From: Humidesulfovibrio sp.
GTDB taxonomy: Bacteria > Desulfobacterota > Desulfovibrionia > Desulfovibrionales > Desulfovibrionaceae
Assembly: GCA_031292175.1 (NCBI GenBank)
Contig: JARLHQ010000008.1
Span: 1 to 64,000 of the forward strand
Reading direction: 5' to 3'
DNA length: 64,000 nucleotides
The position numbers and the translations under genes were made by a program. Position 1 is the first letter of the stretch; every line of letters begins with the position of its first letter. Below are positions 28,242 through 48,836 of the stretch, piece after piece. Below the pieces are notes generated by a model that was not told the DNA's origin, did no database searches, and was given only the letters and a program-made list of their open reading frames with translations.

Positions 28242-28394
28242 TCATTTGCCATCTTGCTCGCTAACGATAGACTCCATGCTGCCCTCTGTGGGTTCCGCCA
28301 CCGCCCTGAACTGCTCCAGCGCCGCCGCGAGGCTCTCGACAATCCACGCCGCGATGACATCCGGCGCTGGCAGGTTGTCCATGTCGTCAAGGTT
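28242..28394 (-). pseudogene. 3' fragment of a second hsdM
   Basis: Read on the minus strand, this gives LDDMDNLPAPDVIAAWIVES followed by LAAALEQFRAVAE and a short new tail to TGA. It matches the last 40 residues of the intact hsdM of this island with a few substitutions. The fragment overlaps the last codons of the PIN gene in another frame. It is the leftover C-terminus of a related methyltransferase gene, cut by recombination. Confidence 0.75.
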
Positions 28395-30636: not shown

Positions 30637-30696
30637 ATAGATTCATTTTCCGATATATGTCAACGCCAACCTGCGTGACCAAGCCCACAAGTGATG

Positions 30697-30813
30697 TCGC
30701 CCCGCCGCCACAACCAGGGCATCGATTCTTTTCCGGGCCTGCTACTCGGGCGTGAGGGGCGTTTCGGCGGCGGTCATGTTCACTGTTCTCGGTCGTACGT
30801 GCGGAAGCTTTCG
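30697..30813 (-). pseudogene. 5' fragment of a second hsdR
   Basis: The minus strand reads MTAAETPLTPE, then a TAG, then QARKRIDALVVAAGRH, closely matching the hsdR N-terminus (MTAPETPLTPEQQARKKID). The bases just upstream of the start (GAACAGTGAAC) match too, so the fragment includes the leader. A Gln codon has become TAG and the match then fades. It lies just downstream of hsdM. Confidence 0.75.
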
Positions 30814-30853: not shown

Positions 30854-32320
30854 TCAACAGCTTTCTGGCGTTGCCTCAAGCTCCCCCGCCACAGCCCGGA
30901 ACTGCTCCAGCGCCGCCGCGAGGCTCTCGACAATCTCCGCCGCGATGACACCCGGCGCGGGCAGGTTGTCCAGGTCGTCCAGGCTCTCGTCCTTGAGCCA
31001 GAAGATGTCCATGTTGAGTTTGTCGCGGTTCACAAGCTCCTCATAGCCGAAGCGCTTGAAGCGCTCCGACTCCTGGCGCTGGGCGCGATTCCCCGTGCTA
31101 TAGCACGAGATGAAGTCGTCGAGGTCCGCCCGCGTGAGGGGGTTCTGGACAAGGGTGAAGTGCTTGTTCGTGCGCAGGTCGTAGATCCAGAGCTCTTTGG
31201 TCCAGGGCTCGGTCGCCGCCGGTTTGCGGTCGAAGAAGAGCACGTTGGCTTTTACGCCGGGCTTGTAGAAGATGCCCGAGGGCAGGCGCAACAGGGTGTG
31301 GAAGTCGCAGGCGTCCAGGAGTCGGCGCCGCAGCCCTTCGCCCGCGTTTCCGGCCTCGAAGAGCACGTTGTCAGGCAGGACCACCGCCGCCTTTCCGTCC
31401 TGCTTGAGGATGCTCATGATGTGCTGGAGGAAGTTGAGCTGCTTGTTCGAGGTGGTGTACTTGAAGTCCTCGCGCTCGTAGATTTCCCGCTCCGTGGCGA
31501 CACTCCCGTCCTCTCCCACCACCTTGTAGCTGGACTTCTTGCCGAAGGGCGGGTTCGTCAGCACCATGTCGAAGGACGTCGAGGGCTTCGCGGCGAGGGC
31601 GTCCCCCTGGGTCACGGGGCTTTCGCCGTTGCCGATGCCGTGCAGGTAGAGGTTCATTGCTGACAGGCGCACCACCTCGTCCACGATGTCCACGCCGGTC
31701 AGGGTGGCCTCGCGCAACTTCCTTTGCAGGTCGCGGTCCTGGGATTGCCCCTTCATGTACTCGTAGGCCGCCAGCAGGAAGCCGCCTGTGCCGCAGGCAG
31801 GGTCGCAGATGGTCTGTCCGATTTTCGGGCGCATGACTTCCACCATGGCCTGAATGACCGGGCGCGGCGTGAAGTACTGCCCTGCGCCGGACTTCACCTC
31901 GGCGGCGTTGCGCTCCAGCAGCCCCTCGTAAATGGACCCCTTCACGTCAACGCCGATGGCCAGCCAGTCCTGGTCGTTGATGAGGGACACGACGCGCTTG
32001 AGCTTGGCCGGGTCGGCGAGCTTGTTCTGCGCCTTGCGGAAGATGGTGCCGATGATGCCCTTTTCGAGGGCGAGGGCTTCCAGGGTGCGCCGGTAGTGCA
32101 CTTCCAGCTCGTCGCCGTCCTTGGACGCCAGCGTGCCCCAGCGCCATTTCTCAGGCACGGTGGAGCCTTCCCCAAGCAGGGCGACCCTCTCGGCGTCCAT
32201 CTTGAGGAAGAGCAGGTAGGTGATCTGCTCCACGTAATCGCCATATGAAATGCCCTGGTCGCGCAGGACGTGGGCGTAGTTCCAAACCTTGGCGACGAGT
32301 GCGGAGTGGTCGTTGCTCAT
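30854..32320 (-). CDS. hsdM: Type I restriction-modification DNA methyltransferase subunit
   Basis: HsdM is the N6-adenine methyltransferase of a type I system; it acts with HsdS to protect host DNA. The 488-aa length fits. An N-terminal helical HsdM_N domain (MSNDHSALVAKVWNYAHVLR) is followed by the SAM-binding motif CDPACGTGGFL and catalytic NPPF in VLTNPPFGKKSS. The C-terminus ends LDDLDNLPAPGVIAAEIVES plus a short tail. AAGGA lies before the ATG. It is the last gene of the hsdR-hsdS-nuclease-hsdM run and starts 13 bp after the FokI-like gene, so it shares the transcript. Confidence 0.95.
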   Translation of the reverse strand: MSNDHSALVAKVWNYAHVLRDQGISYGDYVEQITYLLFLKMDAERVALLGEGSTVPEKWRWGTLASKDGDELEVHYRRTLEALALEKGIIGTIFRKAQNKLADPAKLKRVVSLINDQDWLAIGVDVKGSIYEGLLERNAAEVKSGAGQYFTPRPVIQAMVEVMRPKIGQTICDPACGTGGFLLAAYEYMKGQSQDRDLQRKLREATLTGVDIVDEVVRLSAMNLYLHGIGNGESPVTQGDALAAKPSTSFDMVLTNPPFGKKSSYKVVGEDGSVATEREIYEREDFKYTTSNKQLNFLQHIMSILKQDGKAAVVLPDNVLFEAGNAGEGLRRRLLDACDFHTLLRLPSGIFYKPGVKANVLFFDRKPAATEPWTKELWIYDLRTNKHFTLVQNPLTRADLDDFISCYSTGNRAQRQESERFKRFGYEELVNRDKLNMDIFWLKDESLDDLDNLPAPGVIAAEIVESLAAALEQFRAVAGELEATPESC

Positions 32321-32332
32321 TCTTTCTATCCT

Positions 32333-33760
32333 TTATGCGAGGGCTTCCCGCACCATGTCGCCGGTGAGGATGCCGCTCAGGCAAAAGAGGCGCTGGAGGC
32401 CGCTGGACCCCAAATCGACCTGCCGGGGGTCGCGCAGCTTCGCCTCCACCATGGCCACCAGGGCGTCGACCTGGATGAGGCAGACCTCGTTGACGTGGGT
32501 TTCCATCTTGATGGCGCGGATGGCCTCTTCGTAATCGTCCTTGAAGGTGCTGGAGACGAGGACGTAGTAAATGTTGCGGAGCGACCGGCGGCGCTTGAGC
32601 TCCCGGCTCTGCGTAGCGATGTACTCGCGGATGGTCCTGTCGTCGGTGCCCATGCTGTAGCCGTCCGTGCGCACCTTGGCATCCCAGATGACGGCGTAGG
32701 AGTTGTCCTCGTCGAGCGCGCGACCGTCCGGCACGCGGCCTTGCCCCTGGCCCAGGAGCAGCGTGTCGTACCCCAGGATGGTGAAGGCCGCATGGACGTG
32801 CTTTTCAAAGGCCCGCTCCAGGCTGGTCCCCGTGTTCTTGGCCGCAGTGGCCAGGGCGGGGTCGTTCACGGCCATGCGCGGCAGGATGGCGACGATGGGC
32901 GGCACGTAGCTGTCCGGCAGACGCTCCGGCGCGGGCTGGGGCGTGGTGGTCTTGGCCGACTCCACCTGAAGGGCCTTGGCCGGTTCTTGTCCCTTGGGTG
33001 CCTTGGCGGGCTCCACCGGGGCGGGCGCTTCGGATTTTGCGGCAAGCCCGTGTTTGAGCCAGAAGACGTGCTCGACCTCGTACAGGCCGAAAGGCTGCTT
33101 GCCGGTAGTAGTGAAGAGTTGCACCAGTTCCTCGTGGAGGTGCTTGAAGGCGAGATAGTTCTCGGCCAGATCCTCGCCGGGGCTCCACAGGTTGGCGTCG
33201 CCCAGAATGGTGACGCTGCTCTTGTAATACACGGGCCACACGTCCGGGGCCTGCACCTGCCAGAAGTAGGACAGGAAGAAGGGCACGCTGCCGGGGTTGA
33301 CGCAACGCGACTTGGGGTTGCCGAGTTCGACGATGCGCTCGTTTTGCCGCCGCACGAAGTCGGCGAATTCGGAAAGCTGGGCCTTGGCTGCGGCCTCGTC
33401 CTGCGGGGCGGCGATGGCCCGTTGCAGGGGCGGCACGAACTCCTCGACCGAAATTCCGTAGTTGGGCTCGCGGGTCCAATTGAAGAGCATGTTGAAGAAC
33501 ATCTGGCCGTTGAAGCCCCGGAAGCCCCAGCAGTTGTGCGATTTATTGATGCTGTCCACGCCGGATTTGAACTCGCCCAGCGGCGTTTCTCCGGCCAAAA
33601 AGCCCGCGAGGAGCGGCATCAGCTTGGACTTGATGACCTCGCGCCGCTCTGCGTCGAAGGTGATGTTCTCTTCCCAGCACTTCTTGCCGTCCGGGTTCTT
33701 GGCGGCGAGGTACTCCTGCATAAGCTGCACGGCGCGGTCTTTCTGTTCCTGGGTGAGCAT
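32333..33760 (-). CDS. Protein with C-terminal FokI-like nuclease domain inside the hsd operon
   Basis: A 475-aa cytoplasmic protein between hsdS and hsdM. Residues about 1-240 form a helical domain (FNMLFNWTREPNYGISVEEF, PFFLSYFWQVQAPDVWPVYY) of a type seen at the front of some restriction proteins. A Pro/Ala-rich linker (about 245-290) leads to a nuclease-like domain: PDG with Asp345, then IWDAKVRTDGYSMG with Asp360 and Lys362. This D-x14-D-x-K layout and the following GY and E residues closely resemble the cleavage domain of FokI (PDG, VDTK). A strong GGGAGG precedes the ATG. It should be a DNA nuclease recruited to the type I complex or a linked defence effector; this role is inference. 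Confidence 0.85.
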   Translation of the reverse strand: MLTQEQKDRAVQLMQEYLAAKNPDGKKCWEENITFDAERREVIKSKLMPLLAGFLAGETPLGEFKSGVDSINKSHNCWGFRGFNGQMFFNMLFNWTREPNYGISVEEFVPPLQRAIAAPQDEAAAKAQLSEFADFVRRQNERIVELGNPKSRCVNPGSVPFFLSYFWQVQAPDVWPVYYKSSVTILGDANLWSPGEDLAENYLAFKHLHEELVQLFTTTGKQPFGLYEVEHVFWLKHGLAAKSEAPAPVEPAKAPKGQEPAKALQVESAKTTTPQPAPERLPDSYVPPIVAILPRMAVNDPALATAAKNTGTSLERAFEKHVHAAFTILGYDTLLLGQGQGRVPDGRALDEDNSYAVIWDAKVRTDGYSMGTDDRTIREYIATQSRELKRRRSLRNIYYVLVSSTFKDDYEEAIRAIKMETHVNEVCLIQVDALVAMVEAKLRDPRQVDLGSSGLQRLFCLSGILTGDMVREALA

Positions 33761-33772
33761 GGGGCCTCCCGG

Positions 33773-35557
33773 TTATGCCTGGGTGAGGGCGGATGGTGCG
33801 ATGCCGAGGGCGCGGGCCAGGGCTTCGGCCTGTTCGGCGGTGATGGCGCGCTTGCCGGTCTCCATCTGGGACACGTAGGCCTGATTGATGCCTGCGCGGT
33901 CGGCGAGCTGGGCCTGCGAGAGCCCGGCGGCCTTGCGCACGGCGGCGAGACCCGGCACGGAAGAAGAGGCCACGGCGGCAGAAGGCGCGGCTGGTGACGA
34001 AGCGGACGGCTGCGCGGCAGCACGCGCCTTGCTGGGCTTGCTGGGCGTGCGCTGCGCTGCGCTCCTGGCCGGGCGCGCACTCTGCGCGGCACGCTCGGCG
34101 GCGATGCGCTTCAGCAACTCCTCGGCGGGCTCGTCGTTCGGGTCCTGGGGCACCAGCTTGCCGGAGAAGGCGGCCTTTAGGATGGACTGGCGAAGGCCCC
34201 CTGTGCTGGTGGCAACCTTGGCCAGCTCCTTTGCCATCACATCGGCGATGACCAACCGCCGTTCCAGGTCATCGACCAACTCGGCAAGTTCTTGAAGCGG
34301 GGGGAGCGGGACAGGGATACTTTGCACCAAATCTTTGTTGAGCGCAGGCTGGTTGCCGCCTTGGCCGCGCTTCCGATTCAGGTCATAACGGGACGCAAGG
34401 TAGTGGTAGATATACTCCGGTGGCACCGGCGTCTCGGAGACACGAATTGCCGCACTGTTCTGGCTATGGCAGGCAGGAATGTCCAAGATGGCGACTTGGC
34501 CGCGCGTCTTGCCCTCGCCAATCATGGCAATCAGAATTGTCCCCTTGGGGTGGAGCTTGATGGATGAGTTTTGGTAGCCCAACTCGCTAACGGTCTCCTT
34601 GGTCGCCTTGATACGGCAAAACGCGACCTCCCCGCTGCTTGCCCAAGGGATTCCACCATTCCAGTATGTGGACTCCTTTCGCGATGGGGTGGAGCCAATG
34701 AACACGTTGAAGAGCTGGCCGATGGAAGTCCACGCCCACCCCTGCGGCAACTCCGGCAGCCCCTCGGTGTTCGGCCCCTGCGGCTCCACGTAGCGGGACT
34801 TCCAGGCGTCGTCCGTGGGGCGCTTGCCCTTGGCGCGCAGCTTCTCCAGCTCGGCCTTTTCCCAGGCTGCGCGCCGGGCCTTGAGGATGCGCTTCAGCAG
34901 CGCCTCGCCGCTCTCCAGCGTGTCCGCGTTCCGCTCGCGCCAGGCGCGGGTCAACTCGCCCGTCACCGCCGCCTTGAGCACGGACTGCCGGTAACGCTTG
35001 AGCTGCGCCTGCGCGCGCCGCAGGTTCTCCTCGCCCTTGTCCAGGTCGGAGAAGAGTTCCTCGATGCGGGAGACGATGCGGGCCTGTTCGGCGGAGGGGG
35101 GCAAAGGGAAAGGATACGGGGCGACGGTGGATGGCTTGACCCGCATGAGAGAGCCGCCGACACCGGACACATTCTGGGCCAAAAAAATCTTCACGCAATC
35201 TTGGTTGAGAAAGAGCTTCAAATATGCGGCTTGGCAGGCTCCCGAAGGCGAAAACCGGATCCACTCCGTCGACGCAATGGTCGGGGGGGCATGGACTCCG
35301 ACCACCCAGGAACGGTTGATGCGCGGATTGATTTTGCACAGGAGCACGTCGCCGGGGTCAACCTGCTGCTTTGTCGAGCCGACCTCTTTGCCGTATACGA
35401 CCTCGGGGCTTCCGGTCTCGAAGCTCGGAACGCTGTAAAGAACAAAGCGCGTTTCTGGCTGTCTTGCAGGGTCAACGGTCGTCCCTCTGGCCGAGAGAAA
35501 TTCTCCCAGGGACGTGAGTACCCAGCTTTCCGGCAATGCAAATGCAGGGGTTGTCAT
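33773..35557 (-). CDS. hsdS: Type I specificity subunit fused to a C-terminal XRE-type HTH
   Basis: HsdS sets the DNA target of the type I complex. Two target-recognition halves are visible: LPESWVLTSLGEFLS near residue 8 and LPQGWAWTSIGQLFN near 270, each ending in PLPP plus a conserved helical spacer (AEQARIVSRIEELFSDLD; LQELAELVDDLERRL). After about residue 460 an Ala/Pro/Ser-rich linker leads to a complete XRE-like HTH (LAAVRKAAGLSQAQLADRAG, then YVSQMETGKRAITAEQAEAL). That fusion is unusual. The start is taken as the ATG at 35557, overlapping the hsdR stop as TGATG; the track's GTG is one codon earlier. The length is 594 aa against about 400-450 for ordinary HsdS. Confidence 0.93.
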   Translation of the reverse strand: MTTPAFALPESWVLTSLGEFLSARGTTVDPARQPETRFVLYSVPSFETGSPEVVYGKEVGSTKQQVDPGDVLLCKINPRINRSWVVGVHAPPTIASTEWIRFSPSGACQAAYLKLFLNQDCVKIFLAQNVSGVGGSLMRVKPSTVAPYPFPLPPSAEQARIVSRIEELFSDLDKGEENLRRAQAQLKRYRQSVLKAAVTGELTRAWRERNADTLESGEALLKRILKARRAAWEKAELEKLRAKGKRPTDDAWKSRYVEPQGPNTEGLPELPQGWAWTSIGQLFNVFIGSTPSRKESTYWNGGIPWASSGEVAFCRIKATKETVSELGYQNSSIKLHPKGTILIAMIGEGKTRGQVAILDIPACHSQNSAAIRVSETPVPPEYIYHYLASRYDLNRKRGQGGNQPALNKDLVQSIPVPLPPLQELAELVDDLERRLVIADVMAKELAKVATSTGGLRQSILKAAFSGKLVPQDPNDEPAEELLKRIAAERAAQSARPARSAAQRTPSKPSKARAAAQPSASSPAAPSAAVASSSVPGLAAVRKAAGLSQAQLADRAGINQAYVSQMETGKRAITAEQAEALARALGIAPSALTQA

Positions 35558-38349
35558 CACGCCACCAGCGCCTCATTCAAGTCCGCCAGCAGCGTGTCCA
35601 GGTCCTGGCCGAAGAGCTTGCGCGCGGCGATGAGGCCGCCACGGTCGCTGAAGGACGGGAACTGCATGAAGTCGCGCGGGGCGATTTCCACGTTGGCGGC
35701 CAGGTGGTCGCGGATGAGCCGGAGCCAGTCCATCTGCTCGTCCGTGAACTCGCGCCCGGCCTTCTTCTGGCGGCCCACCCACAGGTTGAAGCGCTGCTCC
35801 ACCTTGGCGCTGAAAGGCTCCAGCACGTCGTCGTAGCCCAGCGTAAAGCGCACCAGGGAAATGATGTCCGTCAGCAGTTGATCGGCGGGCGCGCCGCGCA
35901 CCTTGCTCGCCTGCAAGCGCTTGTACGCCTGCCACACTGTCGCCGTGGTCAGGCGCTGCGGCGGGTCCGCCAGCCTGTGCGTCAGCTCCTTCACCGCGTC
36001 GTAGGTGAGGTGCCGCTTGCCGTAGGGCTGGCTGTAAAGGATTTGCAGGGCGGTCAACTCGTCCTTGTGGGCTTCCATGAATTCCTTGAAGCTGGTTATG
36101 CGCGCTTCCGACTGCTTGAGGTCGTAGCCCGCGCCGGTCACGATGTCCGTGGAGATGGCGTCGATGACGATGTCCGTCTTCTGCTTCAGATCCAGCAGGA
36201 GCTGACGCACCTTGGGGTCGTCGAAGGGCGCGCAGGCCGCGTCCTTGAGCTGCTCCGTTGCGGCGGCAAGCTGCGCCTCGGTGAGCGCCCCGGCCAGTGT
36301 GTCTGCGGACTGCCCCGTCGCCGCGATGGCCGCCTTTTCCACCTCGTCGGGGTCGATGGCGGTGAGCAGGCCGGAGGCCAGGCCGTGCAGGTCTGCCCCG
36401 CCGCTGGCCTGGGCCACGCGCTCGCGGTCCTCCTCGTCCAGCTTGCCTTCCAGCAGGGCCAGCCGCCCGGCCAGGCTCGAAAGGGCGTCGTCGTCCCGGC
36501 GGCCTGCGGCAATCTGCTCCAAAAGAGCCTGGAAAGAAAGGGTTCGTTTGCGCTCCAAGGGTTGCGACACGGTCTTGATGGTCTCGGTGACGCCCACGGC
36601 GTCCACCAGGATGAAGCGTGTCTTGGTGTGGGCGTCGGGCGTCACCTGGCGCAGGGTGGCCTCGTCGATGGAGCGCACGCCCCGGCCCTTCATCTGCTCG
36701 AAGTACCCGGCGGACTTCACGTCGCGCATGAAAAGCAGCACCTCAACGGGCTTGATGTCCGTGCCGGTGGCAACCATGTCCACGGTGACGGCGATGCGCG
36801 GCATGGGGTCCACGCGGAAGCCCTTGATGAGCGCCTTGGGGTCTTCGCTGGTGTTGCGGTAGGTGATTTTCTTGCAGAACTCGTTGCCCTCGCCGAACAC
36901 CTCGCGCACGATGTGCACGATTTCCTCGGCGTGGTTGTCGTCCTTGGCGAAAACGAGGGTCTTGGGCACCCACTCGCCGCTGCGCTCCGGGAAGAGTTCG
37001 GTAAACAGGTTGTCCTTGAAGCATTGGATGACCGTGCGGATCTGGTTGGGCACGGTGACGGAGCGGTCCAACTCCTGGGCCTGATACTCCAGGTTCTCGT
37101 CGAGTTCCCGGTAACGAATCTGGCGGGTGCGCTTGTCACGCACGGGCACGGTGTACTCGGCGGGGATTTCGCCGCCAGCCTCGGTGATTTGCGTGCGGAT
37201 GCGGAAGACCTCGTAGCCCACGTTGACGCCGTCCACCACGGAGCGCTCGTAGGGGTATTCCGCCACAAGGTTCCGATTAAAGAAGCCCAGGGTGTGCTTC
37301 GAGGGCGTGGCGGTGAGGCCGATGATGTGGGCGTCGAAATATTCCAGCACCTGCCGCCACAAGCCGTAGATGGAGCGGTGGCACTCGTCGGTGACGATGA
37401 TGTCGAAGGTCTCGATGGGGATGTCGGGGTTGTAGGCCACGGGCGGGATTTCACCCTCGTCAGTGGCCCAGGTCTCAAAGGCGGAAGTCTCCTCCAGCTC
37501 TTCATCCAGCTCCTCGCCCTTGAGCATGGAATAGAGGCGCTGGATGGTGGTGATGACCACCTTGGCGTCCCGGTCGATGCCGGTGCCGTGGAGGTGTTGC
37601 ACGTTGTAGGTGTCGGCGAAGCGGTTGGCCGTGCCTGGCGGGTGGTACTGCTGGTACTCGCGCAGGGTCTGGTCGCCCAGATTGTTGCGGTCCACCAGGA
37701 ACAGGATGCGCCGCGCCCCAGCGTGCTTGATGAGGCGGTAGCTGAAGGTGCAGGCGGTGAAGGTCTTGCCGGCACCGGTGGCCATCTGGATGAGGCCGCG
37801 CTGGTCGCCCCGCGCCAGGGAGCGCTCCAAGCCCTCCACGGCCTCGGTCTGGCAGTCGCGCAGGCCGGTGGCGTCGAGCGCTGGCATGGTGGTGAAGCGG
37901 GTGCGCATGGACTCGGGAGCTGCGGCCCAGGCGAGCAGCGTCTCGGGCCGGTGGAAGGCGAACACTCGGCGCGAACGCGGCTTGGGGTCGCGCATGTCCT
38001 TGAAGAACACTTCCTCGCCGTTGGACTCATAGTCGAAGATGAGCGTGTCGGACCAGCGTGCGAGGTGCTCCGGCAGTTTGGCCATGTAGCGGTCGGACTG
38101 TTCGGCAACGGCGCTCAAGGTCGTACCGGCCTTCTTGGCCTCGATGACGCCTGCGGCCTTGCCGCCGACAAAGAGCAGGTAGTCGCACGGGCCATTGGGC
38201 AAGGGGAATTCGCGCACGGCCACGCCGGGCCCGGCGTTGCGGTTGAAGCCGTCCTTGTTTTGAATATGCCACCCCGCCGCTACAAGCAGCGCGTCTATCT
38301 TCTTCCGGGCTTGTTGCTCGGGGGTGAGGGGCGTTTCGGGGGCGGTCAT
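35557..38349 (-). CDS. hsdR: Type I restriction endonuclease subunit
   Basis: HsdR is the motor and nuclease of the type I complex. This one is 930 aa from the ATG at 38349; the ORF track uses a GTG two codons upstream, and both sit behind a weak site. The N-terminal nuclease region has CDYLLFVGGKAAGVIEAKK, with the D and ExK of the PD-(D/E)xK fold. The SF2 helicase motor has Walker A TGAGKT near residue 190, a DECH box (TDECHRS) and motif VI-like QMKGRGVRS. The C-terminal part (about 690-930) contacts the rest of the complex. It is the first gene of the minus-strand hsdR-S-nuclease-M operon. Confidence 0.95.
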   Translation of the reverse strand: MTAPETPLTPEQQARKKIDALLVAAGWHIQNKDGFNRNAGPGVAVREFPLPNGPCDYLLFVGGKAAGVIEAKKAGTTLSAVAEQSDRYMAKLPEHLARWSDTLIFDYESNGEEVFFKDMRDPKPRSRRVFAFHRPETLLAWAAAPESMRTRFTTMPALDATGLRDCQTEAVEGLERSLARGDQRGLIQMATGAGKTFTACTFSYRLIKHAGARRILFLVDRNNLGDQTLREYQQYHPPGTANRFADTYNVQHLHGTGIDRDAKVVITTIQRLYSMLKGEELDEELEETSAFETWATDEGEIPPVAYNPDIPIETFDIIVTDECHRSIYGLWRQVLEYFDAHIIGLTATPSKHTLGFFNRNLVAEYPYERSVVDGVNVGYEVFRIRTQITEAGGEIPAEYTVPVRDKRTRQIRYRELDENLEYQAQELDRSVTVPNQIRTVIQCFKDNLFTELFPERSGEWVPKTLVFAKDDNHAEEIVHIVREVFGEGNEFCKKITYRNTSEDPKALIKGFRVDPMPRIAVTVDMVATGTDIKPVEVLLFMRDVKSAGYFEQMKGRGVRSIDEATLRQVTPDAHTKTRFILVDAVGVTETIKTVSQPLERKRTLSFQALLEQIAAGRRDDDALSSLAGRLALLEGKLDEEDRERVAQASGGADLHGLASGLLTAIDPDEVEKAAIAATGQSADTLAGALTEAQLAAATEQLKDAACAPFDDPKVRQLLLDLKQKTDIVIDAISTDIVTGAGYDLKQSEARITSFKEFMEAHKDELTALQILYSQPYGKRHLTYDAVKELTHRLADPPQRLTTATVWQAYKRLQASKVRGAPADQLLTDIISLVRFTLGYDDVLEPFSAKVEQRFNLWVGRQKKAGREFTDEQMDWLRLIRDHLAANVEIAPRDFMQFPSFSDRGGLIAARKLFGQDLDTLLADLNEALVA

Positions 38350-39069
38350 GTTCACTGTTCTCGAATATGTGGTATGAGATGCCGTGTACCCTGAAATTAA
38401 TCAAAACATCAAGGAGCACTACGCCTCGGTAATGCTACACGCCGTCTCCCTTAAGCTCTTGCTAAAAATTCGCGCATGGGCTTGACTTCAGGTCAAGGCA
38501 TAGCGCAACATTTAAGAAAGCCGTATTCCTTCCTTTTTTCGGGCTATCCCGGCCTGCCTTGAGCGGGGCGGTACCGACCAACATGTCTCGCCGCGTGCCG
38601 ACGGGTGCGCGGAACACCATGAATTGCTGTCCTGTGGCAGCCATCATTTCTGCCCTTGCGGCCAAGAGCGCGAAGCCCGTCACGACGGCGGAGCGCACAA
38701 TATCGAGGTCGGATCGTGAACCGGCCCTTTTAACACAAACGCGCAAGAGAGAGTCGGTACGGCTTGGCTCCGCGCGTTTTTTTCGTCCGTCAGTATTCCC
38801 AAAAGAATACTGACGGACGCTGAATTCCTCTTTCAAGCCTTGTCACTTAAGGCTTCCACATACATATGCGGACATTTCCGCGCTTCTCCTACCCCCTGGA
38901 GTTACGCTGCCACCACATTCGAACGCCGCCACGGAGCCTTTCCGCCTTGCGGCGGAGTGCCGGTTCACCGGCACTGGCTCAACTCGCATTGAACTTTCAA
39001 TGCCTCCTGGCTTTTTGGGGAGGCAGTCGGCGAGGGATGAATGGCGATAACCACAACAGGGAGTACATC
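38350..39069. other. Intergenic region between hsdR and the second recombinase
   Basis: About 720 bp with no convincing gene. A minus-strand frame (38462-38836) and plus frames are open but lack ribosome sites and recognisable motifs. The region holds a 15-bp inverted repeat (38784-38819) and, just before the recombinase gene, short hairpins such as GTGCCGGttcaCCGGCAC near 38956. The hsdR promoter should lie on the minus strand near 38360-38420. Confidence 0.4.
38784..38819. repeat. Perfect 15-bp inverted repeat with 6-nt spacer
   Basis: CGTCCGTCAGTATTC and its exact complement flank CCAAAA. It is preceded on the plus strand by TTTTTTT and not followed by T's in either direction, so it does not look like an intrinsic terminator. 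It could be an operator, a recombination site or part of an origin of the mobile element. Confidence 0.8.
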
Positions 39070-40017
39070 ATGGCAGGCAAACAAGATCCCCTCCTTTACG
39101 CCCTGGGCAGGGCGCGACTCACAGGGAGCCGCAAGACCCAGTACAACCACCGCTTGGAGGCTCGCCGTTTCGTCATGACCCTGCGCGAGTTCGGCAACGG
39201 CGTGGCGAAGTGGGCAAACATCACGAACAAGCACGTCGCCGCCGTGGTGGCGCAGTGGCGGGCAGACGGGCTTTCGCTAGGAACCATCAAAAACAACCTA
39301 GCAGGCGTCCGGGCTGTCTGCATGACGTACGGCAACGAAGCCATCGCGTCATCGAATTCTGCCTTCGGGGTCGGGCGTCGCGCGTACATCACAAACGTGA
39401 ACCGCGCTGTTGCCGACGTCGAGTTTGAACGTGTTACGGGGCACCTGTGCGCTTCCGGAAATCCGCAGAGTGATCGTGTGGCGCTCATGCTCGGTTTTCA
39501 GCGCGAATTCGGGATGCGCCTCGAAGAAAGCATGAAGTTCAACCCGCTCCGTGACGTAGGTGGCAACCTGGTCCACATCCACGTGGGCACGAAAGGCGGT
39601 CGACCTCGCTGGCTTGTCATCCGCACTGCTGGACAGCGCGAGCTTCTTGATGCGGCAAAGACGAGCGGTTTCTACCGTGACCTTCGGCATGGAATTATTC
39701 CTGAGCGATGCCGCGAGGAACAATGGCGGGGTTTTGTGTACCGCACTGTGCGCCAAGCAAGCTTCGAAACCGGCGGCACTGGCCTGCGCATGCACGGCCT
39801 CCGGCACGCCTATGCGCACAAACGATACGAAGAGCTGACAGGCTTCCTGCCCCCGTGCCGTTACGACTCGCGCGAATCATATCACGCCGCCGCGATGAAA
39901 GCGGCGGGGCAGGATTGGCGTGAGCGCGACGAACTCGCGCGCTGCACAATTCGCGAGGAACTCGGACACTCGCCCGACCGGGTAGACATCGACGCACAGT
40001 ATCTTGGGAAACGCTGA
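39070..40017 (+). CDS. Second tyrosine recombinase (integrase-like)
   Basis: A 315-aa tyrosine recombinase from the ATG at 39070 (MAGKQDPLLY), with AGGGAG upstream; the track start is 68 codons too early. An N-terminal SAM-like DNA-binding part (about 1-110) precedes the catalytic domain: first Arg in EFGMRLEES, then GLRMHGLRHAYAHKR for the HxxR box, then EELGHSPDRVDIDAQYLGK with the late His and the nucleophilic Tyr near the end. It resembles the 'integrase domain' recombinases of integrative elements rather than XerC/D. It is convergent with the polymerase-like gene across a terminator. Its job beside the island's own integrase is unclear; it may mark a nested element. Confidence 0.88.
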   Translation: MAGKQDPLLYALGRARLTGSRKTQYNHRLEARRFVMTLREFGNGVAKWANITNKHVAAVVAQWRADGLSLGTIKNNLAGVRAVCMTYGNEAIASSNSAFGVGRRAYITNVNRAVADVEFERVTGHLCASGNPQSDRVALMLGFQREFGMRLEESMKFNPLRDVGGNLVHIHVGTKGGRPRWLVIRTAGQRELLDAAKTSGFYRDLRHGIIPERCREEQWRGFVYRTVRQASFETGGTGLRMHGLRHAYAHKRYEELTGFLPPCRYDSRESYHAAAMKAAGQDWRERDELARCTIREELGHSPDRVDIDAQYLGKR

Positions 40018-40281: not shown

Positions 40282-41721
40282 TCAAGCCGCGATGAGCTTG
40301 CGGTCATGGTCAGAGAGGTGCTGGTCCCCGTGCTCGATGTCGACGGGGAGGGCCGTGCCGAGGTGCTTCTCGGATGCTGTGCGCATCGCTGTGTGGAGTG
40401 CAACGGCATGAGGAGCAGGCACGAGAAACGAGTCATGGAGCGGGATAGACGGGATGCCCAGCTCTGCCAGTGTCAGCATGACGCTCTCCGCGATTTCGCT
40501 GTCGATGTTTTGTAAGCGGAGCCCCGCCCCGCTGCCAAACTGACCGGAGATGGCCCTGTGCTTCTCTTTGATGCTGGCGACGATTTGTAGCACCTGATTC
40601 CGGTCAAGCCCATACGCGCGTGCGATGCCTTCTTGCCCGTCAGACCCATGCAACGCGCTGTTGACTGCGGCCAATTCAGTCCGGGCATTGATGAGCGCAT
40701 TGAGCAATTTCTTGATGACGGGCCGGTAGTAGGGATCCCTGTTGTCCAGCGCGTACAGGTCCCCCACGGGCGGAACAACACCCGCAAGAGCATACAGCAT
40801 GCGTGGGTGCATGGATGAAAAATCGAGTTCCACGACGGGGCAGCCCATGAGAGTCAGAAGCGGTCGGAATTCCCCCGGGATATTCTGGCACCAGTGCCCG
40901 TAGAATCGACCTCCATGAGCGAAGTCGCCATTGAAAACACGGTAAACCGTGTTTCTTGTCGTGTCGACGTGGCATCGGCGCAACAGGTCTACCCGCTGCT
41001 CTCTCGTCAAATGGAGCTGAATATCCGCGTCCCGGAGCATCATGTTGATGCGTTCAACGCCCGAGAAGAACCCGGCAGCTTCCTGCATGTCGGTGGTGTC
41101 CACGTCCCGCCCATGGTCATCGCGAAGCACGATAAGCGGGTGTCCTCTGCTCACCATTCTGGGCGTCAGCCTGTGCGCGAGATGCAATTCCATCAGCGCG
41201 AGTGTCGCGCGCATTCGTGACTGACGGCCAACACCTGTCCGTCGGTCATGAAAGCCCATCCGATGCTCGATGAGTCCGAGTTCAACAAGCCCGTCCACTG
41301 CCGCCATCATCAAACGGTACTTGAGGTGCAGGGCCGCGTATCGGGAACCGGTTCGATATGCGTTTTTGTCTCGGGAATAGGCGACGTACGGTCGACCGAG
41401 GACGGATTTCAAATCCTCAGGGTCGGTGTTCTCCGCCCAAGCGATGAAGAGATCCAACACGATGACGGAAACATGTTCGCGGAGTCGCCGACGCTGCTTG
41501 GTGCTCGCAAGGTTGAGCGCCGCCAAGCGAGGATGGGCGCTCTGCGTGAGTGTAGAAATGATGTCGTCGACGGCAGCCCTGATGCTCGGGTGGTCGCTCC
41601 GCTTGTAGACGTCAAGTGGGCGTGAATTGTCGAGGGCCTGGAGAAGGCTCCCGTCTGGCTCAAGTACGATGCATGATACGCCATCCGCCGCCTCGGGCTG
41701 CTCTCTCTCTTTGTCCAACAT
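40282..41721 (-). CDS. Compact protein with family-A DNA-polymerase-like palm motifs
   Basis: A 479-aa cytoplasmic protein. The C-terminal half has three motifs in the order and spacing of a family-A polymerase: motif A-like VVELDFSSMHPRMLY (Asp300), motif B-like RPVIKKLLNALINA (Arg333, Lys337; R-x3-K) and motif C-like PLHDSFLV (His-Asp430). No 3'-5' exonuclease domain precedes it. The first 250 residues are helical and of unknown role (DDIISTLTQ, RRRLREHVSVIVL, then RVFNGDFAHGGRFYGHWCQNIP). It may copy DNA or RNA for the element, or be a derived nucleotidyltransferase. It runs alone on the minus strand, divergent from the small HTH gene. Confidence 0.65.
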   Translation of the reverse strand: MLDKEREQPEAADGVSCIVLEPDGSLLQALDNSRPLDVYKRSDHPSIRAAVDDIISTLTQSAHPRLAALNLASTKQRRRLREHVSVIVLDLFIAWAENTDPEDLKSVLGRPYVAYSRDKNAYRTGSRYAALHLKYRLMMAAVDGLVELGLIEHRMGFHDRRTGVGRQSRMRATLALMELHLAHRLTPRMVSRGHPLIVLRDDHGRDVDTTDMQEAAGFFSGVERINMMLRDADIQLHLTREQRVDLLRRCHVDTTRNTVYRVFNGDFAHGGRFYGHWCQNIPGEFRPLLTLMGCPVVELDFSSMHPRMLYALAGVVPPVGDLYALDNRDPYYRPVIKKLLNALINARTELAAVNSALHGSDGQEGIARAYGLDRNQVLQIVASIKEKHRAISGQFGSGAGLRLQNIDSEIAESVMLTLAELGIPSIPLHDSFLVPAPHAVALHTAMRTASEKHLGTALPVDIEHGDQHLSDHDRKLIAA

Positions 41722-41947: not shown

Positions 41948-42002
41948 CCAATCCACCACTACCCAGGTTGCGACTCGAAACTAGCGAAAAGTGAGACAGA
42001 AG

Positions 42003-42302
42003 ATGAGCAGCACCTCGTACCTCCTCCGGCTGACGGAAGCCGCCGAACTTTTGGGCCTCACAGGTCCGGGAGCAGCGCGCCGTTGGCTTGAGCAGAACAA
42101 GGTGCCGATGATCGACTACGGGCCGGGTAGGGGCCTTGGACCACGGTGGCCGCGCGACAGCATCGTGGAGGCCATCAACGCGAACCTCGTCTACCAGCCT
42201 GGAGCGGAGCCGAAGCGCCGCAAGAAGGCTTCCAGGCCCATCACCGGGCGCAGCACGCGGGAGCTGATTGCCGAACTTGCCAGCCCTCGCGACATACAGT
42301 AG
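42003..42302 (+). CDS. Small excisionase-like HTH protein
   Basis: A 99-aa basic protein from the ATG at 42003 (MSSTSYLLRLTEAAELL); a GTG four codons upstream is the track start. LRLTEAAELLGLTGPGAARRWLEQ followed by DYGPGRGLGPRWPRDSIVEAI fits the winged-helix of AlpA/Xis-type proteins, while the tail (EPKRRKKASR) is strongly basic. It ends 9 bp before the integrase gene, so the two are one unit; such neighbours usually control excision direction. Confidence in the fold is moderate. Confidence 0.7.
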   Translation: MSSTSYLLRLTEAAELLGLTGPGAARRWLEQNKVPMIDYGPGRGLGPRWPRDSIVEAINANLVYQPGAEPKRRKKASRPITGRSTRELIAELASPRDIQ

Positions 42303-43432: not shown

Positions 43433-43490
43433 GAGAGCGATGCGTTCGCAACGCATAGGCCAGGAGTTCAATCCTCCTCGTCTCCACCAA
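43433..43490 (+). repeat. attR: second copy of the 58-bp tRNA-Ala repeat
   Basis: Identical to 26309-26366. It lacks the 5' acceptor strand and most of the D arm, so it is not a tRNA gene. Confidence 0.95.
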
Positions 43491-43827: not shown

Positions 43828-43835
43828 TCAAGGGC

Positions 43836-44399
43836 GTTGCGGCTTGACCTCGTTTCCCCTTCTGCTACTTTATCTGCCTGTAATTCGGCGATAAGGTCTT
43901 CGTTGCGGCTTGACCTCGTTTCCCCTTCTGCTACTTTAGCCTGGATGCCGTCCTGGATGGGCAAGTTGTTGCGGCTTGACCTCGTTTCCCCTTCTGCTAC
44001 TTTAAGGCGGAAGGTCCATTCCATGAATTGACAGTTGCGGCTTGACCTCGTTTCCCCTTCTGCTACTTTGCTCCATTCTAAATGGTCTGCGGCGATGTTG
44101 TTGCGGCTTGACCTCGTTTCCCCTTCTGCTACTTTGCCCGGCACGGTCGCCGCAAGCTGGCCGGAGTTGCGGCTTGACCTCGTTTCCCCTTCTGCTACTT
44201 TATCCGTCCTGACCGCGCGCGGGTATGCTTAGTTGCGGCTTGACCTCGTTTCCCCTTCTGCTACTTTCCCGGACAGCCAGCGCGGGATCTATCTTGAGTT
44301 GCGGCTTGACCTCGTTTCCCCTTCTGCTACTTTCGAAAGCAAGGACTTACTTAATATCATGCTGTTGCGGCTTGACCTCGTTTCCCCTTCTGCTACTTT
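43836..44399 (+). CRISPR. Type II-C CRISPR array, 9 repeats and 8 spacers
   Basis: Nine identical 36-bp repeats (GTTGCGGCTTGACCTCGTTT, then CCCCTTCTGCTACTTT) start at 43836, 43902, 43968, 44034, 44100, 44166, 44232, 44298 and 44364. All eight spacers are exactly 30 bp and unrelated to each other. The plus strand is the crRNA strand, because its repeat pairs with the predicted tracrRNA at 48890. No repeat is degenerate. A 6-bp hairpin (GCCCTT-agtc-AAGGGC, 43820-43835) abuts the first repeat. The repeat ends in TGCTACTTT, which resembles the extended -10 inside some II-C repeats (for example TGCTACAAT in Neisseria). Confidence 0.97.
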
Positions 44400-44401
44400 C
44401 G

Positions 44402-44437
44402 ATCCTGGGTAACATATTCTCAGGATTGGATATTTTT
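44402..44437 (+). terminator. Candidate terminator of the crRNA transcript
   Basis: ATCCTG and CAGGAT (6-bp stem, 13-nt loop) lie 2 bp past the last repeat and are followed by TGGATATTTTTACG. Orientation and place suit the 3' end of a plus-strand array transcript; the stem is short. Confidence 0.45.
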
Positions 44438-44471
44438 ACGAAGTTGGCTTGGAAAACTGGCCTGACTTTAC

Positions 44472-44801
44472 CTAGAAAAGGGTAAGTTGGGTTGGCTTTT
44501 TGTTTTTCTTCCTGGCGCTGGTTTGGAAGCTGATGATGTTTTCAAACTGCCTGTCCGTAAAAGACAGAATGTCCACCTTGCCACCCTCAGGCAGGCGGTC
44601 TTTGATCTTGCGCACGTAGAATTCAATCTTCTCCTTGCCTGGGCAGCAGCGCATGTACACCGAGAACTGGCAGCGTTCGAACCCGAGGTTTTGCAGGTGC
44701 GTCCGGAATGTGTTCGCTTCTTTCCGCTCTTTCTTTGTCAGGACAGGCAGATCAAACATGACGAGCATCCACATGATTCGAAACCCGCTCAACTGGCTCA
44801 T
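44472..44801 (-). CDS. cas2: CRISPR-associated endoribonuclease/integration factor Cas2
   Basis: A 109-aa Cas2. MWMLVMFDLPVLTKKERKEANTFR gives the ferredoxin-like first strand with the conserved Asp of VMFDLP, followed by LQNLGFERCQFSVYMR as usual in type II Cas2 proteins. Cas2 bridges two Cas1 dimers during spacer capture. The ATG at 44801 overlaps the cas1 stop (TGATG), so translation is coupled. The family-like start MWMLV nine codons in is a possible alternative. The gene ends 72 bp from the array. Confidence 0.95.
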   Translation of the reverse strand: MSQLSGFRIMWMLVMFDLPVLTKKERKEANTFRTHLQNLGFERCQFSVYMRCCPGKEKIEFYVRKIKDRLPEGGKVDILSFTDRQFENIISFQTSARKKNKKPTQLTLF

Positions 44802-45709
44802 CAGTCTGCGCTGCGCGTTGTCTTTGGCAAACGGTCGGGCAAAATCAAGGCCCGCCGCTCTCCCGCAAGAACATCCGCGAGGGAGTTGGCCAGCACTTTG
44901 AGGGTGGTGGAAATGGTGCTGGTCTCGCCCTGCAGTCGCACGTCCAGGTCTGGCAACCCGGCGAGGCGCTCCTTGACCTTCTTGTCAACTTCCCGCTTGC
45001 CGGAATCCAGCAGGCCAAGCACAAGAGCGTCCACTGCGGGGCGTAGCACCTCCATAAGATCATCAACGAGCGGCGTGGGGTTCTTGGCGTTTTTATGGTG
45101 TACCCCGAAGGCGGGGTGTAGCCCGGCGAGCATGACCGCGCGCGCCGTTGCAGCGCGCAGGATCGCGTAGCCATAATTGAGCATGGCGTTCACGCCCGGC
45201 AGGTCAGGGTCGCGGCGGAAGTCTGGTCCAAAGCATAGCTGCCAATAGTGGCGCGCGGCAATTCCCTCCATGTTTCCAGAGTCGCCAGATCCGACGCGGC
45301 GCTCAAAGGCCAGCAGTTGGTCGGTGGAGAGTCCACGTAGCGCTGCCACCTGGGCTTGGCCTCGAATTTTCGCCTGAATGAGAGCCTGCCAGATTCGTTT
45401 GTTGACCGGTGCCGGAGCTTTTGCTTGCTGTCGGATGCGCCCGGCCTGTAGATGGTGCCCCTCAAGGGACCAGAGAAGGGCTACGGGGCGCATGGCCTTG
45501 CCGCACAGGATCACTGGGACGCAACGCTCCGCCAGGGCAACAAGCAGATCGTTGCTCCACGTGAGGCCGTGGCCCACGGCAAGCACTGCCCCCAGGTCAT
45601 CAAGGGGAAGACGCCCAAGAAGCTCCCCTTTGCAGAGTACGGACAGAAATCCGAGTTCTTTGCACAGGTAGCGGTTATCTCCCGCAATCTCCACGGTCTT
45701 CTGTTGCAT
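44801..45709 (-). CDS. cas1: CRISPR integrase Cas1
   Basis: A 302-aa type II Cas1, the metal-dependent integrase that inserts new spacers. The N-terminal beta domain (VEIAGDNRYLCKELGFL) is followed by the helical catalytic domain with the conserved Glu in GNMEGIAARHYW, His in PAFGVHHKN and Asp in NPTPLVDDLME. ALNYGYAILRAA-like NAMLNYGYAILRA is typical. It overlaps cas9 by 35 bp upstream and cas2 by one base downstream. Together they form a cas9-cas1-cas2 operon without csn2 or cas4, which defines type II-C. Confidence 0.97.
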   Translation of the reverse strand: MQQKTVEIAGDNRYLCKELGFLSVLCKGELLGRLPLDDLGAVLAVGHGLTWSNDLLVALAERCVPVILCGKAMRPVALLWSLEGHHLQAGRIRQQAKAPAPVNKRIWQALIQAKIRGQAQVAALRGLSTDQLLAFERRVGSGDSGNMEGIAARHYWQLCFGPDFRRDPDLPGVNAMLNYGYAILRAATARAVMLAGLHPAFGVHHKNAKNPTPLVDDLMEVLRPAVDALVLGLLDSGKREVDKKVKERLAGLPDLDVRLQGETSTISTTLKVLANSLADVLAGERRALILPDRLPKTTRSAD

Positions 45710-48700
45710 GGCCCGGCACCTCCAGATAGCGCACCTTGCCGATAGGGCTAACGGAAATGGGACAAGCCCGCGTTTTTTGTAGCGCGGCAGGGCTTCGCGT
45801 CGTGTACGTGAAGGTTTTTGCCTCCACCCGTTTGCGTAAGTTGGCTTCGCAGTGTTCCGCGAGAACGATTTTCCCCTCCGATATCTTCACCACATAGTAG
45901 AAACGCTGGGCGCCATTTTCGCTGATTGCCAGCATGTCATTGCGGAACAGCCGCGCTACAAGCGGTAGCTTTTGCAGCGTCTGCGATCCTTGCGGGCCAG
46001 GGCCATTGGCCTCGAAGGTGGATATGATTTCGCCAATCCACTTGCCGTCCGCACCGAGATGGATGGCGTAGTATGCGTTGCTATCACCCTTGAACCCTTT
46101 ATAAACTTTGCCTTGTTTGTCCTGTATGGGGATCAGGCTCAAGGTTTCCAGAATGCGCACCCTCCGGATGCTTCTGCGCGCACAAAAATCCAGTAGCTTT
46201 TGCGCAAACGCCTTGTCTGGCGTTTGGACGAGGGACTTAATCCTGGCTTTGGCTTCCTTTTCGCAGAGCCCGGCCACTTCAATGAGCCCAGCCCGGCATT
46301 GCGCCAATGGAAGGTCCGAGACAGCTCGAAGCATCTGTGCCCTCAGGCCTATGCCTTTGACCGCGAGCAGGTGAGCTGGTTCGGTGAGAGACGCGGCCGG
46401 TATGCGGTGTTGGGCATTGTGCAGCGTGCCATTTTCTCCCAGAACTCCATATGCCGTATCATTGTGCAACCGTCCCGCCACGCCGTGATCCGCCTTGTGC
46501 GACACGATGATTTGATCAAGCTGCGTGGACAACTCCCCTCGGAAGCCCGGCCAGGGCTCTTCGAGTCCGGTAAGGATGCGGCTTGCGGCCTGCTCGATGT
46601 TCAGCGCGCTCTGGCGTGCGGCCTTTTGCAAAATAGCCCGGTCGGTCACGCCAATGACCGCCGCATCCTGAGCGTGGTGGCGGTGGTCGTCACGGTTTTT
46701 GCGCGGCAAGCCCCAGTTGCGGGCCAAAAGGAAGGTGAGCCGTCCCGGTGTGACCCAAACTTGACGCGGATCGCACACGGAGCAGAGGTACCCCTTGGTG
46801 ATTCTGGAGATATACTGCGTATCAACCAATTGGCGGTCCAGGAAATCCCCTTCCTCCTCATAACGCAGTAGCGCGTCCTCGCTGAAGCGCTTCCGTTTGT
46901 TCGCAGGCATGAGCGCCGCCCGCTCCAGGATGCTGGTCCAAGAATACCCGTCCGCAGAGGCTCCAAAGGCCTCGAACGGGGTGTTGTTTGACTTGTAGCG
47001 GTTGGCCCGGCGCAGGCAGATGGTTTTGTTGGCTGGGCTGTCATCCAGCGTGCGGGCAAACGGAAGAATGTGTTCGATCTCAACTTCCGAGGAGAGCACT
47101 TGGCGCATGGACAAGGGCTCCCCAGTATAGGGGCAGCGGCGTTCCGCCGGGCTCGCGGCAAGCTCCTCCCAAAGTCGCAGCCGCATCAGATTCTCGGCGC
47201 TTACTGATTCCCCAAGTCCCTCCAAATCCTGTCGCCTGCGGTCATTGGCCTTGCGTTGTTCTTCCTGGCGTTTTTGGATTTCCTTACGGGCCTGAAGGCC
47301 GTTCTTTAGGTCGCGTGCGACCTCCAGAATGATCTGTTGCGGGTGCCCATAGTCTTTGATGAGTTCGTTCACCACCCGGCGAACCTGATTTAAAGCCACG
47401 TGCACGGTTGGGTTGGTGATGCGTCCATAACGGGCTTCGAGCCGGTCCGCCGGATGGTTTGTTCCGAAGCCAACATGGCGTTGCAGCACAATGGCGTAAT
47501 ACGGCAGGCGGTCGTGGATTTCCCCGGTGCTAAAATCGGAGTGTGAAACATACCCCGCCCTGACCACGGCTTCGGAATACGGAATGACCTCCGCGCGTAA
47601 TTGGGCGGTAACATTCGTCAGTGCATCGCGGCACAGGCGGGAGTAGCCATTTGGCAAATCAAGGGCAGCCAAGGCGCGGGACTGCGACTCTGGCAACCCC
47701 CAATCATCCATGAGCGTTTGCAGGAGCAAGTCCTCATTTTCCTCTTCAAGCAGCAGGAGCACAAGGCGTTCCTGCTGTTCCGCGCTCAGTTGGAACCAGC
47801 CTGGACCGAAGTGCTCTTTTTTCGAGAGTAGGGCCGCCGTAATATCCTTCTTCAGGCGGTCCCTGCTGGCACCCTCAAGATTGAAGGCGTGCCCGGGAGC
47901 GAGTTTCAGTTTCCCTCGCATGGAATCAAAGGCCAGATCCTTGCCGGAGAGCAGTATCCCTGCGATTGTGTCTCGTTCGCTGGGAGTAAGGGGGCGTTCG
48001 TGCAACTCGGGGGTGATGACCCGCAGTTGGTTCACCTCCTGGAAAATGCGGAAATGTTGGGCAACAGGTAATGCCAACGAAGCCCGCTCCTTTGGGGGCT
48101 CCAGCGTACACCGGCCGGGTTGCACGGGCTTGAGGGACCTCTGGTGGAAGATGATGCCGTGAAGTTCCTCGCGTGCGGCCGTTGTAAGCCGGGGATGAAA
48201 TTGCGCCTGCGTTGACCACAGCAGGTTGAATTCTTGCTCCATCAATACCCGTTCTGGGTAGAAGTCGTACTGCGCTCGCGCGCCAGCGCCCTGGAGTCGC
48301 GCGCGGACGGAATGCCCTTCAACCTTGCGTACGTGCAGATACGCACCAATCGTGCGCGTCCCAGCCTCTTGCATCAAAGCTTTGAGGCGTTGAATGGCTG
48401 GATGGATTTTGCCTGCCTCGGCATTCTTGTCAGTCTTCCGATTACTTCGGAAACCACGGCGTTGGTTCAAGTGAAATAAGGCCCGGCCAAGCTGGAACAA
48501 TTCAAGGCGAGTGGTGATGCCTTTGGCCCGGAGGGCATAAGGATCTGCGGCCTCCAGCCCTTTGCGCTCGCGTTCATCTGGGGGCATGAGCCCGTGCCCG
48601 ATGAGTGCCTGCATGAGCTTCCCGCGTCGGAGCAGATACCGATCCCGCCGTCTGCGGGCTTGTCGAGCCAAACGCCTGTCAACGGCAAGCGATGCTTCAG

Positions 48701-48836
48701 TCTTTGCGTCACGCCCATCCGGGAAGATGCGAACTCCCATGCGACGAATTGCGCATGGTTCGTTCTCAGCATCCAGATTGAATACGCACCACCCAATGGA
48801 ATTGGTTCCGATGTCTAGCGCGAGCCGGTAGCTCAT
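45675..48836 (-). CDS. cas9: Type II-C Cas9 nuclease
   Basis: A 1053-aa Cas9, in the usual size range for II-C (about 1000-1100). RuvC-I is at the N-terminus (LALDIGTNSIGW, Asp8), with an Arg-rich bridge helix near 60-80 (RRLARQARRRRDRYLLRRGK). RuvC-II is IILEVARDL (Glu505). The HNH domain has EIEHILPFARTLDDS with His589, preceded by Glu588 where many Cas9s have Asp, and NKT for the Asn. RuvC-III is HRHHAQDAAVIG (His-His, Asp724). All catalytic sites look present, so an active dual-RNA-guided nuclease is expected. AAGGGG lies before the ATG. The gene is divergent from the tracrRNA. Confidence 0.97.
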   Translation of the reverse strand: MSYRLALDIGTNSIGWCVFNLDAENEPCAIRRMGVRIFPDGRDAKTEASLAVDRRLARQARRRRDRYLLRRGKLMQALIGHGLMPPDERERKGLEAADPYALRAKGITTRLELFQLGRALFHLNQRRGFRSNRKTDKNAEAGKIHPAIQRLKALMQEAGTRTIGAYLHVRKVEGHSVRARLQGAGARAQYDFYPERVLMEQEFNLLWSTQAQFHPRLTTAAREELHGIIFHQRSLKPVQPGRCTLEPPKERASLALPVAQHFRIFQEVNQLRVITPELHERPLTPSERDTIAGILLSGKDLAFDSMRGKLKLAPGHAFNLEGASRDRLKKDITAALLSKKEHFGPGWFQLSAEQQERLVLLLLEEENEDLLLQTLMDDWGLPESQSRALAALDLPNGYSRLCRDALTNVTAQLRAEVIPYSEAVVRAGYVSHSDFSTGEIHDRLPYYAIVLQRHVGFGTNHPADRLEARYGRITNPTVHVALNQVRRVVNELIKDYGHPQQIILEVARDLKNGLQARKEIQKRQEEQRKANDRRRQDLEGLGESVSAENLMRLRLWEELAASPAERRCPYTGEPLSMRQVLSSEVEIEHILPFARTLDDSPANKTICLRRANRYKSNNTPFEAFGASADGYSWTSILERAALMPANKRKRFSEDALLRYEEEGDFLDRQLVDTQYISRITKGYLCSVCDPRQVWVTPGRLTFLLARNWGLPRKNRDDHRHHAQDAAVIGVTDRAILQKAARQSALNIEQAASRILTGLEEPWPGFRGELSTQLDQIIVSHKADHGVAGRLHNDTAYGVLGENGTLHNAQHRIPAASLTEPAHLLAVKGIGLRAQMLRAVSDLPLAQCRAGLIEVAGLCEKEAKARIKSLVQTPDKAFAQKLLDFCARRSIRRVRILETLSLIPIQDKQGKVYKGFKGDSNAYYAIHLGADGKWIGEIISTFEANGPGPQGSQTLQKLPLVARLFRNDMLAISENGAQRFYYVVKISEGKIVLAEHCEANLRKRVEAKTFTYTTRSPAALQKTRACPISVSPIGKVRYLEVPGHATEDRGDCGR

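Follow-up and report, generated by a model that had tools for sequence, protein, structure and literature searches.

Whether a compact polymerase-like gene is a genuine polymerase, and what it does for the mobile element that carries it, is the question raised by a locus in the 64,000 nucleotide stretch of the Humidesulfovibrio sp. contig JARLHQ010000008.1 analysed here (the window). A preliminary description had proposed that a small integrative element encodes a family-A polymerase with no exonuclease, and had suggested roles in element replication, repair at integration or a defence reaction that makes nucleic acid. The 479 aa ORF has an ATG start and lies at the position given earlier (Table 1), on the minus strand, which had not been stated. 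Upstream of the ATG is GGAGGGAGC, a good Shine-Dalgarno-like sequence; a consensus scan for a promoter, of a kind that says little, found none. The motifs ELDFSSMHPRMLY, RPVIKKLLNALINA and LHDSFLV are all present in the protein as quoted, with D300, R333, K337 and D430 as the key residues. As the ordered motif set was found in 113 of 132 family members and in 0 of 881 other ORFs of at least 300 aa and 0 of 20,000 shuffles of the protein, it is beyond chance.

Conservation was counted over 132 distinct homologue sequences, with denominators that vary by position. The four key residues, which had been proposed for this check, are near-invariant: D300 is Asp in 131/132, R333 is Arg in 129/131, K337 is Lys in 131/131 and D430 is Asp in 128/129. 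R286 is kept in all 132 sequences and R272, in the hairpin formed by strands 260–264 and 270–274 of the model described below, in 131/132. Y323 and H429 are kept in 131 and 126 members of the 132-sequence set, the fingers residue D321 in 115/132 and S431 in 120/129, so that motif C reads HDS. Five residues past the motif-A Asp, H305 is His in 110/132 homologues, and eight residues past the fingers Lys, N345 is Asn in 114/131, while Pol I homologues within the window's phylum have Glu and Tyr at these positions. We take the two positions to be E710 and Y766 of Pol I, which line the ribose pocket (the sugar gate). By the alignment, E710 is changed to His and Y766 to Asn, both of them positions with a link to sugar selection in Pol I. 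The active-site residues are under selection in nearly all family copies, and the window copy is apparently intact as a polymerase.

No Pfam or NCBIfam model matched the protein, and the PF00476 model was silent even at E 10. An AlphaFold2 model of the full protein, built from a 96-row alignment of genome loci only (phage and plasmid rows were left out), had a mean pLDDT of 92.1 and a pTM of 0.89. When it was used to query the PDB with Foldseek, 89 matches were returned at E ≤ 0.001 (best E 7.5e-6), and the best 50 of the 89 were family-A DNA polymerases and a mitochondrial RNA polymerase, with probabilities of approximately 1.00. Taq, Bst and apicoplast PolA were among the matches with probability 1.00, and the top matches were all DNA Pol I. 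A differing N-terminal half keeps the full-chain TM-scores low (0.3); the common palm and fingers part covers approximately 280 columns at 6–6.5 Å. In profile comparisons with the PDB, the best genuine match of the family was Taq Pol I in the register GR..LQNIP..DYSQIE, at a non-significant E of approximately 1.1, and an hhalign comparison with PolA sequences scored E 0.008 at a probability of 5%, with GR/LQ and RxxxK in register and motif A offset. As this alignment is weak, it is the structure model that carries the case for a PolA fold. Together with the conserved residues, the modelled palm and fingers bear out the proposed identity: the 479 aa protein is predicted to be a compact family-A-type polymerase, and neither the Pfam and NCBIfam searches nor the model revealed an exonuclease domain. 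Neither of the two outcomes named beforehand as refuting that identity, variable catalytic acids or a model lacking a palm, was seen. Modelled alone, the N-terminal residues ~34–210 gave a pLDDT of 91.3, and their top PDB matches were mostly winged-helix proteins of the MarR, CodY, TFE, PadR and ORC types. As these matches are singly non-significant (best E 0.12), the domain is termed winged-helix-like only. This is not a new kind of enzyme, as the family was described in 2008 under the name TV-Pol.

The polymerase gene lies inside a 17,124 bp interval bounded by an exact 58 bp direct repeat that consists of the last 57 nt of a tRNA-Ala(CGC) gene (26290–26365) and one A. With the flanks joined at one copy of the repeat, they aligned unbroken with sequences in the relatives G504 (92%, 141 bp), G040 (89%, 140 bp), and G501 and G506 (81%, 203 bp). 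Thus, the uninterrupted site exists in nature, and the small integrative element that had been supposed is an island with clean att sites, reported here for the first time. The gene for integrase 2, which presumably integrates the island, ends 9 bp from attR, and the 103 aa helix-turn-helix protein encoded beside it is a possible excisionase. The integrase 1 gene is convergent with the polymerase gene. No helicase domain was found in the island genes other than hsdR, and no ORF adjoining the polymerase gene is a candidate for an OB-fold SSB partner.

Table 1. Features of the tRNA-Ala island (window coordinates) and of the polymerase it encodes (residue numbers)
Feature	Position	Strand	Basis
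attL, left copy of 58 bp repeat	26309–26366	+	tRNA gene and repeat
HTH_17 protein, 181 aa, near attL	27586–28131	+	PF12728, E 4.4e-8
Cargo protein, 643 aa	28387–30318	-	no Pfam or PADLOC match
Type I restriction-modification cargo	30854–38355	-	Pfam and PADLOC
hsdM	30854–32320	-	Pfam/PADLOC
FokI-domain protein, 475 aa	32333–33760	-	PF09254, E 1.4e-6
hsdS	33773–35560	-	Pfam/PADLOC
hsdR	35557–38355	-	Pfam/PADLOC
Tyrosine integrase 1, 383 aa (Phage_int_SAM_2/Integrase_1)	38866–40017	+	PF12834, E 6.7e-9; PF12835, E 9.9e-8
Probable TV-Pol gene, 479 aa	40282–41721	-	ORF, conservation, AlphaFold2, Foldseek
HTH_17-like protein, 103 aa (below cut-off)	41991–42302	+	Pfam; gene immediately precedes integrase 2
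Tyrosine integrase 2, 370 aa	42312–43424	+	PF00589, E 5.9e-16
attR, right copy of 58 bp repeat	43433–43490	+	repeat; joined flanks align to relatives
Winged-helix-like N-terminal domain	residues ~34–210		AlphaFold2 model and Foldseek
Putative thumb helices, before hairpin	residues ~213–250 (213–231, 240–249)		AlphaFold2 model; by position along the chain
Beta-hairpin with R272	residues 260–275		AlphaFold2 model, conservation
Palm strands with D300 and D430	residues 294–301, 426–435		AlphaFold2 model, conservation
Fingers helix with R333-x3-K337	residues 330–345		AlphaFold2 model, conservation

The cargo includes a complete type I restriction-modification (R-M) system, in whose operon a gene for a protein with a FokI-type cleavage domain (PF09254) is placed between hsdM and hsdS. 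Two pairs of 98 bp repeats, one of the hsdM 3′ end (28295–28392 and 30886–30983; 92%) and one of the hsdR 5′ end (30694–30791 and 38266–38363; 85%), enclose the 643 aa gene, as if it had replaced one R-M operon between two scars. Approximately 340 bp past attR, a CRISPR array with a 66 bp period and an apparent type II-C Cas9/Cas1/Cas2 set occupy 43828–48836. In G040, sequence matching the window at ~51.5 kb is found within ~1 kb of tRNA-Ala, and the segment from 43.5 to 51.5 kb therefore looks like a second insertion. In a further relative, G505, another TV-Pol, of distant kinship to that of the window, is found ~3 kb away from this tRNA-Ala. The segment around it also carries a serine recombinase and a 590 aa integrase and is closed by an 18 bp copy of the tRNA end and sequence like the right flank in the window. 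Thus, this tRNA-Ala is one hot spot that has received two different TV-Pol islands.

Elsewhere, PHROG 4756, a phage family of unknown function, matches residues 113–462 of the window protein with E 2.6e-47. By this match, PHROG 4756, which includes proteins of ICP1 and other phages, is assigned to the same family, a new link. A viral scan from the single sequence found no relatives; the pattern search was built on a five-sequence alignment, an 18-sequence alignment being too divergent. Using tblastn, family members were found in 166 phage records, mostly from phages of Vibrio (ICP1 and others), Aeromonas, Pseudoalteromonas and Shewanella, and in 3 plasmid records. Carriers make up 37 of 348 genomes of the window's class, with only two outside its own taxonomic family, and 6 of 297 genomes in a sample of the phylum; the named relatives in the window's group are Desulfovibrio species. 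Scanning GTDB contigs returned 256 relatives (80 were kept) in Alphaproteobacteria, Desulfobacterota, Nitrosospira and others. The window's own genome has one family copy and a true PolA elsewhere (G000:C25). In a tree, the window copy clusters with Desulfovibrionaceae copies (support 0.934), and the phage copies fall, together with two bacterial ones, in a single clade (support 0.989).

The phage copies have the same motifs as the window protein and often adjoin homing endonucleases. As all 10 phages examined also encode a separate PF00476-type polymerase elsewhere, the family protein is accessory there. Each of these phages has one to three TV-Pol copies, and two copies are interrupted by stops. 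In phage genomes L017, L018, L019 and L020, two or three divergent copies are found far apart, some of them remnants or with in-frame stops. Among ICP1 isolates (L009; H71-H100), matches of two kinds were seen, one of 22.5% over 71% and the other of 29.3% over 35%, which suggests replaced or diverged alleles.

The surroundings of the family were compared with background in 19.5 kb regions (±8.5 kb), 28 containing TV-Pol and 20 control regions hand-placed in the same genomes, far from the polymerase gene. Of the 28 TV-Pol regions, 22 had tyrosine integrases, against 3 of the 20 controls (p 1.4e-5); serine recombinases were present in 18 and 1 of them, respectively (p 2.3e-5), and recombinases of either kind in 24 and 3 (Fisher p 1.1e-6). 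The neighbouring recombinases are of many unrelated types, at varied positions. Integrase 1 was considered as a constant partner and rejected: a close relative was found at only 1 of 132 family loci, ~7.7 kb off, so there is no fixed polymerase-integrase pair. A conserved 272 aa protein adjoins TV-Pol on the same strand at 10 loci (e.g. L084:8083–8901), in nearly every case immediately downstream of it; most of these loci are from Desulfovibrionaceae. It had no Pfam, PADLOC or phage match and is a possible functional partner.

With a conserved core, a PolA fold, a recombinase-linked family and an att-bounded island as the basis, and by analogy with CcPol of SCCmec, the sole biochemically studied TV-Pol, we favour element replication among the roles suggested earlier. 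At a little above even odds (roughly 55%), the window TV-Pol would prime and/or extend DNA during replication of the excised island, without a helicase or SSB partner of its own. We infer excision by the integrase, origin binding, and strand start and extension. Integrase 2 would excise the island as a circle, the winged-helix-like domain would attach to the element, possibly at its origin, and at the bound site a new strand would be started and/or extended by the polymerase core. Copying of this kind would keep the island from being lost when it is excised or transferred. Because the island has no recognisable helicase or SSB-like partner, the host helicase, SSB and Pol III would supply the remaining functions. 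With no MP/SSB-like partner or helicase recognised near the gene, priming may be impossible and the enzyme perhaps performs primer extension only, or the N-terminal domain may replace the missing priming partner. A bolder version, which we consider a long shot, is that helicase-less winged-helix TV-Pols are initiator-polymerase fusions that recognise the origin and lay the first strand, a relaxed sugar gate (His, Asn) allowing a ribonucleotide start. If true, replication would be initiated without a DnaG/AEP primase or SSB partner.

Repair at integration is possible as a role of the enzyme, but a polymerase that does no priming and simply extends 3′ ends, arising from recombinase strand exchange or the conversion of transferred ssDNA, seems unlikely as the general explanation. 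Strand exchange by tyrosine or serine recombinases produces no gaps, and Pol I is already available in the host, so the need for such an enzyme is unclear, and the winged-helix-like domain points to binding of a DNA site, not general gap repair. On the other side stand the strong recombinase linkage, the lack of an SSB or helicase partner in the island and the behaviour of CcPol, which without its MP/SSB partner only extends primers, priming requiring the partner (PMC10061031). A miniature T7-type enzyme making RNA primers or element transcripts is a weaker candidate. The mitochondrial RNA polymerase among the fold matches and the His and Asn at the ribose gate would suit it, as would motif C, which is HDS, not HDE, in T7-type RNA polymerases. 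However, every top fold match is a DNA Pol I, the protein also lacks the other gate residue (Y639 of T7 RNA polymerase), the promoter-binding N-terminal domain and the specificity loop, and no promoter set is known.

That the gene is selfish, hitchhiking in islands and phages via recombinases or homing nucleases and useless to the island, is similarly doubtful. Divergent phage copies dispersed over the genome, in some cases interrupted by stop codons and often beside homing endonucleases, and the unrelated types of adjoining recombinases are consistent with it, but selection on the active site in nearly all copies and a recombinase association far above background argue against it. Least credible is the suggested anti-phage defence reaction. 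Type I R-M genes adjoin the polymerase gene in the window, and are neighbours at about a tenth of family loci, but PADLOC returned no match to the 479 aa protein, the family is common in virulent-phage genomes and no recurrent effector partner was seen at family loci. With no positive support of any kind, this role was rejected.

Compared with known enzymes, the window protein shares with PolA the palm and fingers fold, the D/RxxxK/D catalytic set and the GR...Q hairpin motif, but has no exonuclease, an apparently short thumb, no match to PF00476, and D-x4-H for D-x4-E, K-x7-N for K-x7-Y and HDS for HDE. T7-type RNA polymerases are about 800 aa or more, not 479 aa, and differ in having an N-terminal promoter-binding domain and Tyr, not N345, in motif B. 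The closest agreement is with TV-Pol as described by Iyer, Abhiman and Aravind (PMC2579912), a family of 400–600 aa proteins with a thumb of two antiparallel helices, a hairpin with an invariant Arg, a two-Asp palm, and fingers with a conserved Asp and RxxxK. They occur with an extra N-terminal domain, with a D5 helicase or stand-alone, and without a nuclease fusion; the subset with the N-terminal domain is linked to gamma-delta resolvases, lambda-type integrases and R-M operons, and transposases are also among the neighbours. The family was predicted to act as primase and DNA polymerase and to come closest to the ancestral form behind DNA Pol I and T7 RNA polymerase (PMC2579912). The window protein has the two-Asp palm (D300, D430), D321 and R333-x3-K337 in the fingers, the hairpin with a near-invariant Arg (R272), a modelled extra N-terminal domain and no nuclease, and two tyrosine integrases and R-M genes are near. 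The N-terminal domain was described as all-helical (PMC2579912), whereas that of the window protein is winged-helix-like in the model. Phage Ma-LMM01, named in the 2008 paper, gave no significant match in an HMM search with the family profile. Its gp030, which lies beside transposases and is likely the published member, has the R-x-Y, Q, R, D-x4-H and K-x7-N of the family and aligned at the hairpin and motif A (hhalign E 0.016, probability only 2.8%); the link to gp030 therefore rests on common motifs and a weak profile comparison. With the described palm, fingers, hairpin, N-terminal domain and neighbourhood present and the sequence link to a published member weak, membership of TV-Pol, judged against the published description, is highly probable.

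PHROG 4756 matches directly and has the same motifs, but the phage copies are without an integrase and group in the clade described above; through this link a phage family of unknown function, including an ICP1 gene, is tied to TV-Pol enzymes. CcPol, which its authors place in or close to TV-Pol (PMC7581432, PMC10061031), is likewise a mobile-element family-A polymerase near site-specific recombinases, and in vitro CcPol-MP can copy a DNA template without needing a primer (PMC7581432, PMC10061031). Among TV-Pols, this atypical pair is the only one assayed so far, to our knowledge of the literature. CcPol lacks the N-terminal domain of the window protein and shares an operon with genes for an OB-fold partner and a helicase; neither was recognised beside the window gene, which therefore falls outside the PolA-SSB primase definition. 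CcPol also keeps the Pol I sugar-gate residues, as E174 and F225 (PMC7581432). As H305 and N345 are unlike those of both CcPol and Pol I, substrates and the direction of the effect are not predictable from them, and these residues and the winged-helix-like domain are the exact features worth testing. Beside CcPol, the locus adds an intact TV-Pol example in a defined 17 kb island with known ends, which, together with the connection to phages and the changed sugar gate, is where its value lies.
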